Below, in pieces: positions 8,452 to 34,375 of a DNA stretch of 36,669 nucleotides (within the stretch, counting starts at the first letter, position 1; the number at the start of each line of letters is the position of its first letter). The position numbers were made by a program, and so were the translations under genes. The notes beneath the pieces were generated by a model. It made no database searches and was not told where the DNA came from. It saw nothing but the letters and a program-made list of their open reading frames with translations. Source of the stretch: an uncultured Pseudomonadota bacterium (GTDB lineage: Bacteria; Pseudomonadota; Gammaproteobacteria; Enterobacterales; Succinivibrionaceae); contig ONIT01000014.1 in NCBI GenBank assembly GCA_900317945.1, positions 1 to 36,669 of the forward strand. The letters are read 5' to 3'.

Positions 8452-11400
8452 TCTGGATTCCTCCTGTCTTTGCCGCAAGCTTCTTGGCGTGAGCCTCTCT
8501 TACCTGCTTGGGGATGTATTTGGTGCAGTAGCGCATGACGAACACGAAGAATACCGGGACGAACACTATCGCAAGAAGCGTTGCGCTCAGCATTCCGCCG
8601 ATAACGCAGATTCCGATCTCATTCTGGCTGTTCGAGCCTGCGCCTGAGCTGAGGGCAAGCGGGAGCACACCGAAGATGAAGGCGAGCGAGGTCATCAGGA
8701 TCGGGCGGAGTCTTATCCTTGCGGCCTTTACAACCGCGTCGGTAAGCTTGGCGCCGCTGTCATAGATGTCCTTCGCGAACTCGACTATCAGTATTGCGTT
8801 CTTCGCGGAAAGTCCGATGGTGGTCAGCAGTCCTACCTGGAAGTACACGTCGTTGTATACCGAGTGGATGTTCGGGTTGACGAACTGCGCCCACCACTGG
8901 GTAATCATGGCTGCGATAACCGATCCGCAGACTCCGAGTGGCACAACCAGCATTACCGCGAACGGGATGCTCCAGCTCTCATAGAGGGCGGCAAGGCTCA
9001 GGAACACGACGACGAGGGAGATGGCGTACAGGAACGGAGCCTGATCGCCAGACTGCTTCTCCTGGAACGAGGTGCCGGTCCACTCAACCTCATAGCCGTT
9101 CGGGAGCTGCTTGGCGAGGCGGACGATCTCATCCATTGCCTCACCGGTGGAGTGTCCGGTCTTCGGCTGTCCGGTGATCTCGACTGCCGGGAAGGCGTTG
9201 AAGCGCTCGAGACGCGGCGAGCCGTAGGTCCATTCCTTGGTGGCGAAGGCGCTGAACGGAACCATCTCGCCCTTGGTGTTGGGAACGTACCACTTGTTGA
9301 GGTCAAGCTCTCTTGATCTGAACTGCTTGTCGGCCTGGACCATTACCTTCTTTACCCTGCCGCGGTCAACGAAGTCATCAGTGTAGGACGAGCCCCACGC
9401 GGTTGACATGGTGCTGTTGATTGCCGATGCTGTTACGCCGAGCGCCGCAGCCTTCTGGTAGTCGGTGTTGATCCTGAGCTGAGGGGTATCGTCAAGTCCG
9501 TTGGCGCGGACGTTCTCGATGATCTCGCTGTTCCTGGAGGCGGCAAGGATCTTGTTTCTTGCCTTGATGAGCTCCTCGTGGCCGTATCCGCCGCGGTCCT
9601 CAAGGAACATGTCGAAGCCCTGCGCGGTTCCGAGCTCAGGTATTGCCGGAATATTGAAGCAGTAAGCGAGAGCGTCCCTGACAGCGCCGAGCTTCGGGGA
9701 GGTCTCCTTGATGAGGTTGTATACGGTCTTCTCGTAGCCCTCACGCTCTGACCAGTCCTTGAGCTTGACGAAGAACATGGAGTTGTTCTGTCCGACGCCG
9801 GAGAATGACCAGCCGATGACGGCCAGGACCTGCTCGATGACGTCCTCGTGTCCCTCGCGCATCAGGTCGGTCACCATGCCGGCAATTTTCCTGTTCTGCT
9901 CAATGGTGCCGCCGGCGGGCAGGGTGATCATGGTGAACATGGTGCCCTGGTCCTCCTCGGGGAGGAAGGATGAGGGAAGCTTCATGAAGCCCCAGACCAG
10001 CACTGCGCAGATGACCGCGTAGTAGAGGAAGTACCTCGGCAGGTGGTGAACGACCTCCCTGACGTGGTTCTCGTATGACTCGGTCATCCAGGTGAAGAAC
10101 CTGTTGAAGAGATTGAAGACAGGCGAGAGCAGGATATCGGTGATCTTCTCGAAGGCCTTCCTGAGGGCGCCCTTCTTCCTCTTCTCGATGAGCCTCGGAT
10201 CGGCAGCCTCCTCCTCAGCCTCCTCTATTGCGGCAAGCTCCTCATCCTTCTTGCCCCTGAGCATGCTCGCGCAGAGCGAGGGGGTAAGGGTAAGCGCGAT
10301 GAATACCGAGAGCGCCATCGCGGAGACGATGGTTATGGAGAACTGGCGGTAGATGACACCGGTCGAGCCGCCGAAGAAGGCCATCGGGATGAACACAGCG
10401 GAGAGCACCATGGCGATGCCGATGAGGGCGCCGGTGATCTCGTTCATCGACTTGATGGTGGCCTCGCGCCCCGTAAGGTTCTCGGTCGTCATGACTCGCT
10501 CGACGTTCTCGACGACGACTATCGCGTCATCGACCAGGAGTCCTATCGCGAGCACCAGTCCGAACATGGTGAGGGTGTTGATGGAGAATCCTGCGGCATA
10601 CATTATCGCGAACGTTCCGAGCAGCACGACAGGCACCGCTATGGTCGGAATGATCGTGGCGCGCAGGTTCTGCAGGAACAGGTACATGATGATGAATACG
10701 AGGATGATTGCCTCATAGAGCGTATGGGTAACCGAGTTGATCGACACGGTGATGAACGGTGTCGTGTCGAACGGGTAGACGATTGCCATTCCGTCAGGGA
10801 GGGCCTTCTCGAACTCGGCCATCTTGGCGCGCACCAGCCTTGAGGTCTGCAGCGCGTTGGCGCCGGTGCTGAGCATTATGCCGAGGCCGGATGCGTTCTT
10901 GTGGTCAACGAAGGCGGTAGTCGAGTACTGCTCGATTCCCATCTCGACGCGGGCAACATCCTTGAGCCTGATGATGTGTCCGTCAGCGTCGCCGCGGAGG
11001 ACGATGTTCCGGAACTGCTCAGGCGTGTTGAGACGCGACTGTCCGACGATGGTGAAGTTGTACTTCTGCGCCTCGACTGAGGGCGCGCCGCCGAGGGCGC
11101 CGTAGGTTACCTGGGCGTTCTGCGCCTTGATGGCCGCGTTGACCTCGTCGGTCGAGATGCCGTAGAGGCTCAGCTTGTCCGGGTTGAGCCAGACTCTCAT
11201 CGAGTACTGTCCGCCGAACACGATGATGTCGCCGATGCCGTCAAGACGGGAAATCGGCTCCTTGAAGTTCGAGACCACGTAGTCCGCAAGGTCGCCAGAC
11301 TCGTACTTGTTGTTCGGGGAGATGAGCGCAACGGCCATCAGGAATGAGGAAGTGGACTTTTGCACGGTGATTCCGTACTGCTGCACTTCCTGAGGCAGCT

Positions 11401-17342: not shown

Positions 17343-18569
17343 TCAGGTCAGAAACAGATCCCTCTTCCCGAGCAGGAAATCGATAATATTCAGGTGGACA
17401 ATGCCGTCATGGCTCAGGTCGAACCGATCGAGGGACATTACATATCTCGGAGAGGCATCAGTGATTCTGCTGTACGCGCCGAACTCTCTCCTGATGCTTT
17501 CCTCTGAGTCAAGCAGGTATGCCACCTGGATAAGGCACTTCCTGCCGTCTCTTACTGCTGCAAAATCCACCTCACCGCTTCGCGTTTTCCCGGTGAAAAC
17601 GGAAAATCCCCTGGAGATGAGCTCGCTGAATACGGCATTTTTCAGAAGGAATTCATAATCCGGATCCTGATTGCCGGCATTTGCGGAAATGAACCCTGTA
17701 TCAGCTGCATACAGCCGCTCCTTATAACAGGAGAGGGAGCAGCTCCTCCTCGCTATGTCATACCGTCCCGCGGAGCGAATCAGGCAGGCGTTCTTCATTC
17801 TCCCGAGGTAGTTGTAGACAGTCCTCCTCGAGACACCGTCAGGCGCGGCGGATATTTCCGCGGCAATCACACTTGGATTCTTTACCGCGATGCCGGCCAT
17901 GATCCGCTTCGGAATTTCCCGGAAGTCCTTTCCTCCGGCGCTTCCTGAGATTCCGGTTACGTTTCGTCTGACTATGCCCATGAAGATGTTTGAGAGATAC
18001 CTCTGAGCCTCGGCATCGCTGCCGCAGAAAAATCTCCCAGGAAGGCCTCCCCATCTGAGGTAGCTGAGGAACATTCTGTTATCGTCCGGCCATGCCCACC
18101 CTCTCTGGCTGAACAGTTCCCTCATCTCGCTGAACGAGAAAGGAAGGAGCTCAAATTCGACAGTCCTGCCGGTAAGAAGTGTGGCGGGATCCCCGGAGAG
18201 CAGTGTGGAGCAGCCTGCGGTGACGAAGATGGATACATTGAGAGTTGCCATGAGCGAGGCCAGAGCCTTCTCGAATTTACTGACATGCCGGATCTCATCA
18301 AGGAAAATGAAGTATTTCCTGTCATCATGAAGACGTGATTTGATCTCGCTGTCCAGGTCACTGGCATCGGCGATACAGGCCTATTCAGGATCCTCAAAAT
18401 TGAGATAAATGATGTGATCTGAACAGATGCCTTCTGCAGAGAGCTCATCCATGACAGACTGAAGAAGTGCTGACTTCCCTGCTCCGCGCACTCCGGTGAT
18501 CACCTTGATGATATCTGAGCTGTAGAACGGCCTGATCTGCCTGAGGTACTTTTCACGTTTCAGAATCAT
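17343..18569 (-). pseudogene. AAA/DUF4143-type ATPase gene with an in-frame amber codon
   Basis: Read as one frame this encodes a typical AAA_14 plus DUF4143 ATPase of about 408 codons. It starts MILKREKYLRQIRPF, then Walker A TGVRGAGKSALL, the NFEDPE segment, Walker B KYFIFLDEI, a helical middle, and a C-terminal domain ending GKRDLFLT. One TAG (18381-18383) interrupts it after NFEDPE, where relatives usually carry Tyr (NFEDxEYA), so one base change from TAC or TAT would explain it. The frame is intact on both sides (18384-18569 and 17343-18380), suggesting a recent mutation, amber suppression or a sequencing error. Any restart would lack Walker A. These proteins are common mobile-island or toxin-like ATPases of unclear role. 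A palindromic repeat array lies just upstream. Confidence 0.85.
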
Positions 18570-18633
18570 TCAGCGTATCCCTGACATAAGTGTCATTCAA
18601 TCTGTAGCTGCCTTGCGCAGTTCCTGAAATTTC

Positions 18634-18777
18634 CGTCATCTGTGCAAGTAGTCTTGCACGAGTTCTTAATTTACGCATTTTGTGCATGAAGTCATGCACG
18701 ATTTCCAGAAATTCCGCATTTTGTGCATAAGGTCATGCACGATTTCACGAAACGCCGCATTTTGTGCATGCCATGCC
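18634..18777. repeat. 41-bp tandem repeat array, 3.5 units, each with an 18-bp palindrome
   Basis: Units begin at 18634, 18674, 18715 and 18756 (periods 40, 41, 41); the last is truncated. Each full unit carries an 18-base palindrome at 18642-18659, 18682-18699 and 18723-18740, with overall form GTGCAwgwAGTCwTGCAC. In unit 1 both arms change together (GTGCAAG with CTTGCAC) relative to unit 2 (GTGCATGA with TCATGCAC), so pairing or twofold symmetry is kept. Unit 3 keeps GTGCAT/ATGCAC only. The array starts 65 bases upstream of the interrupted ATPase gene and is not within any gene. It may be an operator or iteron-like array. Confidence 0.9.
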
Positions 18778-18837: not shown

Positions 18838-18876
18838 AAAGAATAACGGCGGAACCCTTCACAGGATCCCGCCGTT
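18838..18876 (-). terminator. probable terminator of trxA
   Basis: An 8-bp stem, AACGGCGG (18845-18852) with CCGCCGTT (18869-18876), encloses a 16-base partly paired loop. On the minus strand it is followed by an interrupted T run. It lies about 50 bases after the trxA stop. Confidence 0.7.
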
Positions 18877-18926: not shown

Positions 18927-19250
18927 TCAGCCGAGATTTGACTTGATAAAGTTCTTCAGCTCGGTTGCGGAGATGAGTCCGGTGTTCTTGGCTACCATCT
19001 TGCCGTCCTTGAACAGGGCAATGGTCGGAATGCTTCTGATGCCGCATGCGGCAGAGAACTCCTCATTCTCGTCAACGTCTACCTTGGCGAATACCACGCC
19101 GTCAGTCTCCTTTGCGACTTCCTCGAATATCGGCCCCATCGCGCGGCAGGGACCGCACCAGGTTGCCCAGAAATCGATGACGGCAGAGACGCCTTCCCTT
19201 ACGGCCTTGTCCTTGTAGTCAGCGTCTGTGATATGGATGATTTCGCTCAT
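18927..19250 (-). CDS. trxA: thioredoxin 1
   Basis: This is a cytosolic disulfide reductant. The protein has 107 residues, the normal length, with the active site FWATWCGPCRAM around residue 32 and the cis-Pro loop IRSIPTIALFKDG. It starts MSEIIHITD at ATG 19250 with AGGAGA six bases upstream; longer in-frame starts lack homology and a ribosome site. It is monocistronic, with its own terminator. In E. coli trxA sits next to rho; here rho is not seen. Confidence 0.96.
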   Translation of the reverse strand: MSEIIHITDADYKDKAVREGVSAVIDFWATWCGPCRAMGPIFEEVAKETDGVVFAKVDVDENEEFSAACGIRSIPTIALFKDGKMVAKNTGLISATELKNFIKSNLG

Positions 19251-33781: not shown

Positions 33782-34375
33782 TTACAGAGCCTTTGAGCCG
33801 CCAAGCAGTGAGGAAATAAGCTTGCGGTTGCGATCTGCTCCGGATGCAGGTGCAGGAGCAGGCTCGGGCTTTGCCGGGCGCCTAGGCTGCGGAGCGGGCC
33901 TGGGCTCGGGCTCCGGCTCAGGCTCGGGTTCCGGCTCAGGCTCGGGCTCCGGCTGACGCCTTCTGCTGAATGAAGGAGCAGGAGTCTCCTCCTTGGCAGT
34001 TGAGACGCCGTTGTCAGAGCCGAGGGCGGACATGCGGCTTACCCTGAGATGGAGGTCCTTGCATACCTCGAAGATATGGTCAAAGGTGGAATCGTCAGAG
34101 AGGAATGTAATCTCAACGTCATCTTCAGAAAGAAGCAGTCCGAGCCTCAGAGCGAACTGCATGTTGAAGTCCTCTCTGTCCTTGCTGTCGATCTGAACGA
34201 GATCGATCTGGATCTTGTACTGTGACTGGATCATGAGCAGCTGGGAGACCATCTCCATGGACATGCTGTTCTTGCCTTTGTTCACAATCATTTTCACATT
34301 TGAGAAACGATCCATCATGCCGGAGGGCATTTCCTGGGAGAAATCGCTTCCGATGATCAGAATTCTGTTGGGCAT
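33782..34375 (-). CDS. uncharacterised protein with Rossmann-like N-terminus and Pro-Glu repeat linker
   Basis: The protein has 197 residues. The first 120 look like one alpha/beta domain: NRILIIGSDFSQ (first strand), IQIDLVQIDSKDREDFNMQF, LGLLLSEDDVEITFLSDDST, then HIFEVCKDLHLRVSRM. This resembles a PIN/NYN-like fold by strand pattern and acidic residues, but I cannot confirm it. A low-complexity tract of about eight Pro-Glu pairs follows (nucleotides near 33903-33956), then a Pro/Ala/Arg-rich stretch and a basic tail (RNRKLISSLLGGSKAL). ATG 34375 has GGAG six bases upstream. The gene is single, between the ABC operon and lgt, with its own terminator. The function is not assigned. Confidence 0.75.
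   Translation of the reverse strand: MPNRILIIGSDFSQEMPSGMMDRFSNVKMIVNKGKNSMSMEMVSQLLMIQSQYKIQIDLVQIDSKDREDFNMQFALRLGLLLSEDDVEITFLSDDSTFDHIFEVCKDLHLRVSRMSALGSDNGVSTAKEETPAPSFSRRRQPEPEPEPEPEPEPEPEPRPAPQPRRPAKPEPAPAPASGADRNRKLISSLLGGSKAL
33903..33956. repeat. 18-bp tandem repeat, three units, encoding Pro-Glu
   Basis: Three copies of an 18-base unit (GGCTCGGGCTCCGGCTCA and variants) start at 33903, 33921 and 33939. Units differ by one or two bases. Because 18 is a multiple of three, gain or loss of a unit would keep frame and add or remove three Pro-Glu pairs. Confidence 0.9.

Follow-up and report, generated by a model that had tools for sequence, protein, structure and literature searches.

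PDC-S01 is a phage-defence candidate still awaiting validation (PMC12988326, PMC13356809), and it consists of an ATPase fused to a PD-(D/E)XK fold (PMC12988326). It is reported to rank fourth in abundance among prokaryotic defence candidates, with 29,494 bacterial and 9,986 archaeal copies (PMC12988326), and to be the individual locus found most often in rumen genomes (PMC13356809). In the searchable literature (subscription journals lie outside it), no array, operator, DNA site or palindrome was found in connection with PDC-S01, COG1373 or DUF4143. Site arrangements open to comparison are known from other systems. AbiEi autoregulates via inverted repeats in its promoter, and its relatives show no binding to one another's repeats (PMC7319586). 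Like Rv2827c, it is a winged-helix protein whose own promoter is controlled through several inverted repeats, but it is a small antitoxin that pairs with a toxin and lacks an ATPase, and its 23-bp repeats are laid out otherwise. Orc1/Cdc6 with origin repeats, and the Rep proteins of plasmids with their iterons, combine an AAA+-winged helix protein with repeated sites near its own gene, while REP/BIME elements are intergenic palindromes in tandem.

The locus described here lies in a window (the whole stretch of DNA analysed) of 36,669 nucleotides from an uncultured member of the Succinivibrionaceae. It contains a PDC-S01 ATPase gene with the same fusion, but this copy is a pseudogene, and the defence role of the family is itself that of a candidate. 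Beside the gene is a tandem array of palindromes, which is probably the surviving cognate site of the neighbouring ATPase, and an instance of a family-wide autoregulatory architecture; position, privacy, geometry by subfamily, co-divergence and domain architecture were computed here. The features of the locus, including those shared with the sister species G001, are as follows.

17343..18569, minus strand: AAA_14/DUF4143 ATPase gene (COG1373, PDC-S01), pseudogene; AAA+, winged helix and PD-(D/E)XK-like parts
18621..18770, no strand: tandem array of 3.7 copies with period 41, putative cognate site for binding of the ATPase
18642..18659, no strand: palindrome unit 1, 18 bp, GTGCAAGTAGTCTTGCAC
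18682..18699, no strand: palindrome unit 2, 18 bp, GTGCATGAAGTCATGCAC
18723..18740, no strand: palindrome unit 3, 18 bp, GTGCATAAGGTCATGCAC
18764..18770, no strand: truncated unit 4, a single half-site GTGCATG
18845..18876, minus strand: terminator-like hairpin that belongs to the thioredoxin gene and lies between it and the array; also present in G001
18927..19250, minus strand: thioredoxin gene, upstream of the array; neighbour shared with G001

The preliminary description had reported an array of 18-base palindromes with periods of 40, 41 and 41, lying 65 bases before an AAA/DUF4143 gene, and both statements were confirmed. TRF finds the array at 18621-18770 (score 163, period 41, 3.7 copies) with unit spacings of 40, 41, and then 41 up to the half unit; the palindrome pattern has 3 matches in the window versus a mean of 0.01 in 100 shuffles; and the ATG of the ATPase (18569, minus strand) is 65-73 bp from the array. 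A one-mismatch search of the 2.89-Mb genome to which the window belongs gave, beyond the array, one lone unrelated site. The array sequence is absent elsewhere in this genome and in 98 relatives, and a DNA search gave no plasmid match. The exact unit pattern occurs at 4 lone sites, without an array, in a genome collection, and a looser pattern in 87 stretches of viral contigs with one match apiece; both sets were taken as chance.

The array showed no consensus promoter. Neighbouring genes tested with Pfam encode a thioredoxin, a Ppx/GppA protein, a hydrolase, a glycerate kinase and two proteins without a Pfam match. A CRISPR array was rejected, as the units differ from one another (71-85% identity to the reference copy) and the spacers are alike; no cas-like match was found among these neighbours. 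An AbiE toxin-antitoxin system was also rejected, with no AbiEii nucleotidyltransferase among the same neighbours, as was a role for the array as thioredoxin terminator, since the thioredoxin gene has a terminator-like hairpin of its own (18845-18876). Elsewhere in the window, at 33902-33954, is an 18-bp tandem repeat, GGCTCGGGCTCCGGCTCA, of 2.9 copies, which has no relation to the ATPase array.

The reading frame of the ATPase is broken by an in-frame TAG at 18383-18381 (codon 63). With the TAG read through, the protein contains the AAA_14 P-loop domain (PF13173, E 1.2e-26) and matches the PADLOC profile PDC-S01 at E 2e-103, the orthologue in G001 matching at 1.5e-131. DUF4143 scores 27.9 bits against a cut-off of 28.1 in the window and 48.6 bits in G001, and its fold is also present in the model. 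This AlphaFold2 model (pLDDT 86, pTM 0.87), computed from the read-through protein and an alignment with viral-contig homologues, comprises what we interpret from the order of elements as an AAA+ domain (1-175), a winged helix (about 218-278) and a PD-(D/E)XK-like fold (305-395). Foldseek matched the model to the archaeal ATPase PABY2304, Orc1/Cdc6 on origin DNA, RFC, and Apaf-1/CED-4/NLR proteins; no solved structures related by sequence were found. The likeness to Orc1/Cdc6 and to iteron-binding proteins is structural only (TM-score only about 0.3 for 2v1u and 2qby), and these ATPases differ in having an extra PD-(D/E)XK-like domain and many paralogues with private sites. Nuclease activity of the family seems doubtful, because the catalytic-Lys position of PD-(D/E)XK enzymes is A, S or T in most members. 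The winged helix has a weak profile match to AbiEi (3e-4); a search of its recognition-helix columns for a specificity signal was uninformative, with nothing special there. As the window gene is dead, the array is presumably the relic of an ATPase-array pair.

An intact counterpart of this pair is found in G001, where the order thioredoxin, array, ATPase is the same and the ATPase is an intact orthologue, 58% identical to that of the window. The DNA of the two species is 91% identical on the thioredoxin side and 83% identical on the opposite side; between the arrays there is no blastn alignment. The TGCA half-sites nevertheless follow one ruler, the window having spacings of 12, 29, 12, 28 and 12, and G001 a recurring 12/29; the word TGCA occurs 8 and 15 times, respectively, versus about 1 expected, and only TGCA...TGCA is invariant across nine units (those of the window and six of G001). 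The preliminary description had taken the joint change of the two palindrome arms between units as a sign of selected symmetry. The co-change is literally true, but we reject it as the chief proof of selection: it comes down to roughly a single base pair (A-T to T-A at pair 6/13), kept in only about a third of the six G001 units, and is therefore weak alone. The half-site spacing common to both species is much stronger evidence of selection than the covariation of the arms. Between the two ATPases, identity is 33% in the winged-helix region, 66% in the AAA+ domain and 68% in the PD-(D/E)XK part, an unevenness, lowest in the winged helix, beyond what pseudogene decay alone would be expected to give.

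Homologues of the window ATPase number 14 in its own genome by protein search, and more by DUF4143. An upstream array or long inverted repeat accompanies 23 of the 27 assessable ATPases of this genome (counted by hand from the upstream-repeat table, with the window gene added) versus 8 of 131 control genes (Fisher 4e-17), and a tandem-repeat search upstream of homologues gave further arrays of unrelated sequence. Across a larger set, the best palindrome within 150 bp upstream has a mean z of 2.53 for 95 ATPases and 0.76 for 250 control genes (p 5e-9), and the palindrome score reaches 9 or more in 34% and 7% of them, respectively; arrays with a period of 36-44 stand upstream of 10/95 ATPases versus 1/506 controls (p 6e-8). 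Strong palindromes peak between -100 and -50 (23% of short-type genes, to which subfamily the window gene belongs, versus 2% of controls) and are nearly missing within genes. Their overlap with predicted sigma-70 promoters (17/41 versus 13.8 expected) is not significant. In an independent sample of viral contigs, upstream palindromes were found in 12 of 33 ATPases.

Among the array-bearing control genes that were inspected, two (L247, L253) are ATPases themselves and three (L250, L255 on the minus strand, L256) have an intergenic region in common with an ATPase. Near the start of contig L255 there is also a 41-bp palindromic array, GTACCCGAAAACGGCTTTCCGGGTAC, upstream of ORF 472-1303 (MlaF-like ABC ATPase), beside which no ATPase of the family is visible; such a gene may be situated past the contig end. 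L241 carries about 7 copies of an 11-bp tandem repeat, ACCGAACAAGT, upstream of ORF 9626-10502 (ketopantoate-reductase-like), with no recognised ATPase immediately adjacent. On viral contig L336, a promoter-like TTGACA...TATAAT before an ATPase has a CATAGAATTCTATG palindrome on either side, a layout resembling two operators joined by a loop.

The expectation that ATPase genes of related genomes would have upstream palindromes was borne out for most of them, each with a different sequence of its own, and failed for a few: no array is visible upstream of C107:3606 and C33, both in the window's own genome, or of L014, and a Treponema homologue is without a clear one. Because of these exceptions, the rule that an ATPase is preceded by an array of its own is strong but not universal.

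When ten different arrays were joined as one query against their own genome, all 41 matches fell on the contigs and upstream positions of the corresponding ATPases. An array standing elsewhere without its ATPase, which had been named as evidence against the pairing, was thus not found for the window array (own genome, 98 relatives, genome collection, plasmids) or for these ten sister arrays. An ordinary dispersed repeat (REP/BIME or MITE) or a chance tandem duplication would likewise be intergenic, palindromic and tandem; but the window array is unique in its own genome and relatives, control genes rarely carry arrays, and each ATPase has a different, private array found nowhere else, with no dispersed copies, so REP/BIME and MITE elements were rejected and this reading is essentially excluded. 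The array might also be bound by another host-encoded regulator or a nucleoid protein, given that palindromes could also serve other regulators of the winged-helix or HTH type. With ten arrays in one genome, each of its own sequence, and with sequence and spacing tracking the ATPase phylogeny across phyla, a pattern that a shared host factor would not give, we regard such a regulator as highly unlikely.

The geometry of the arrays was compared for 127 ATPases of a short and a long subfamily. Palindromic units of the short subfamily are spaced at 39-41 bp, with none at 30-35, whereas in the long subfamily the units are direct repeats, 32-34 or 22-23/46 bp apart, with none at 36-44. Long-type genes with 23-bp repeats are 45-59% identical to one another and stand apart from those with 32-34-bp repeats. 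Arrays of 32-33 bp were found by tandem-repeat search in 6 of 10 named plasmid records and occur in five phyla, in Collinsella (Actinomycetota), Prevotella (Bacteroidota), Fusobacterium (Fusobacteriota), Vibrio and Acinetobacter (Pseudomonadota), and Criblamydia (Chlamydiota); several of the plasmid arrays have, by eye, a GAAAAnGTGT-like core. On the Fusobacterium animalis plasmid pSB029A (L359:804-2682), the ATPase gene overlaps a gene for an RNA 2'-phosphotransferase, a possible operon partner. Arrays of this family, of 3-10 phased units and with a geometry that differs per subfamily, are in these respects unlike the repeats of AbiEi.

The repeats could act instead as RNA hairpins in the leader, through attenuation, stability or processing. 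The window array does fold better as RNA than its shuffles (z -3.9), and palindromes are near the start codon. Long-type direct-repeat arrays, however, are unstructured (z +1.8) yet alike in position, privacy and regular spacing, so that hairpins were rejected as a general account; no Rfam family reached its cut-off; and the constant spacing near whole helical turns indicates a role at the level of DNA. We consider hairpins a very improbable explanation.

Protein and site also diverge together. Among 92 short-type ATPases, 78-100% of the pairs with more than 60% protein identity have their palindromes in common (some pairs above 90% being near-identical loci), and below that value sharing is near background, the null being palindromes with permuted columns. 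The overall rank correlation between palindrome and protein is not above that of permuted palindromes, so the evidence for co-divergence is a step above 60% and no smooth trend. Palindromes are shared by such distant hosts as L033 and a Moraxella plasmid (84% identity), L019/L160 and a gut phage scaffold (62%), and E. eligens and the same scaffold (73%), and in several pairs the palindrome is the sole visibly conserved piece upstream. Sharing extends across phyla, with unrelated flanks. The Treponema saccharophilum megaplasmid pTS2 (L281:3001-4224) encodes an ATPase 62% identical to the G001 copy, which points to transfer among phyla of the rumen; upstream of it are only scattered TTGCA half-sites, without a clear array.

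A rival reading is that ATPase and array form a self-contained mobile or replicative cassette, in which the ATPase acts on the array as a site of maintenance, replication or recombination (iteron-, centromere- or end-like) and transcriptional control is secondary. The Orc1/Cdc6-like AAA+-winged helix fold, the iteron-like direct-repeat arrays of the long subfamily, and the numerous plasmid-borne homologues (238 and 59 records), together with some on phage scaffolds and the one on the Treponema megaplasmid, agree with it. Most copies, however, sit singly in the chromosome, with many in each genome; the orthologous position is kept between the window species and G001; and the array is on the promoter side only, its unit sequences occurring nowhere else. 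We judge a cassette of this kind unlikely.

The comparison favours reading the window array as the cognate site of its ATPase, a proposal of the preliminary description (for autoregulation or anchoring) that is well supported by the census of arrays upstream of their own genes, their privacy and their co-divergence. The half-site ruler kept in G001, the winged helix of the model, the fold likeness to Orc1/Cdc6 on origin DNA and the precedent of AbiEi also speak for the autoregulatory reading. Speaking against it are the non-significant overlap of palindromes with predicted promoters, the missing consensus promoter at the window array, the ATPases that have no visible array, the lack of a signal in the recognition helix and the broken window gene. 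The proposed operator sites are present in the gene's own upstream region, gene-specific, and co-evolving with its product. We infer a mechanism in which each ATPase, encoded behind a private set of sites, would bind these sites itself, the winged helix reading one half-site and the AAA+ subunits lining up, in an ATP-dependent assembly, on sites set at intervals of roughly two, three or four helical turns; the assembly would then repress (or gate) the ATPase's own promoter. Site spacing would be fixed by the subunit arrangement of the subfamily, and site sequence would co-evolve with the protein, such that roughly 30 paralogues per genome may avoid cross-talk. More tentatively, the ATP-dependent assembly of each PDC-S01 ATPase on its private phased array might be the functional core of the system, beyond a mere operator: a sensor or switch in which invading DNA would disturb the complex and release the ATPase/nuclease-like protein, present in dozens of orthogonal copies per genome, its site spacing falling into classes of about 23, 33 and 40 bp that each subfamily keeps across phyla.

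The value of the window array is that it exposes a general rule for a very abundant, uncharacterised ATPase family, in a pattern invisible from the window alone. A private, phased and co-evolving array is a natural candidate ligand for each PDC-S01 member, with which binding, assembly, specificity and regulation become testable together, and the many diverged protein-site pairs could expose a recognition code and provide orthogonal DNA-binding switches.
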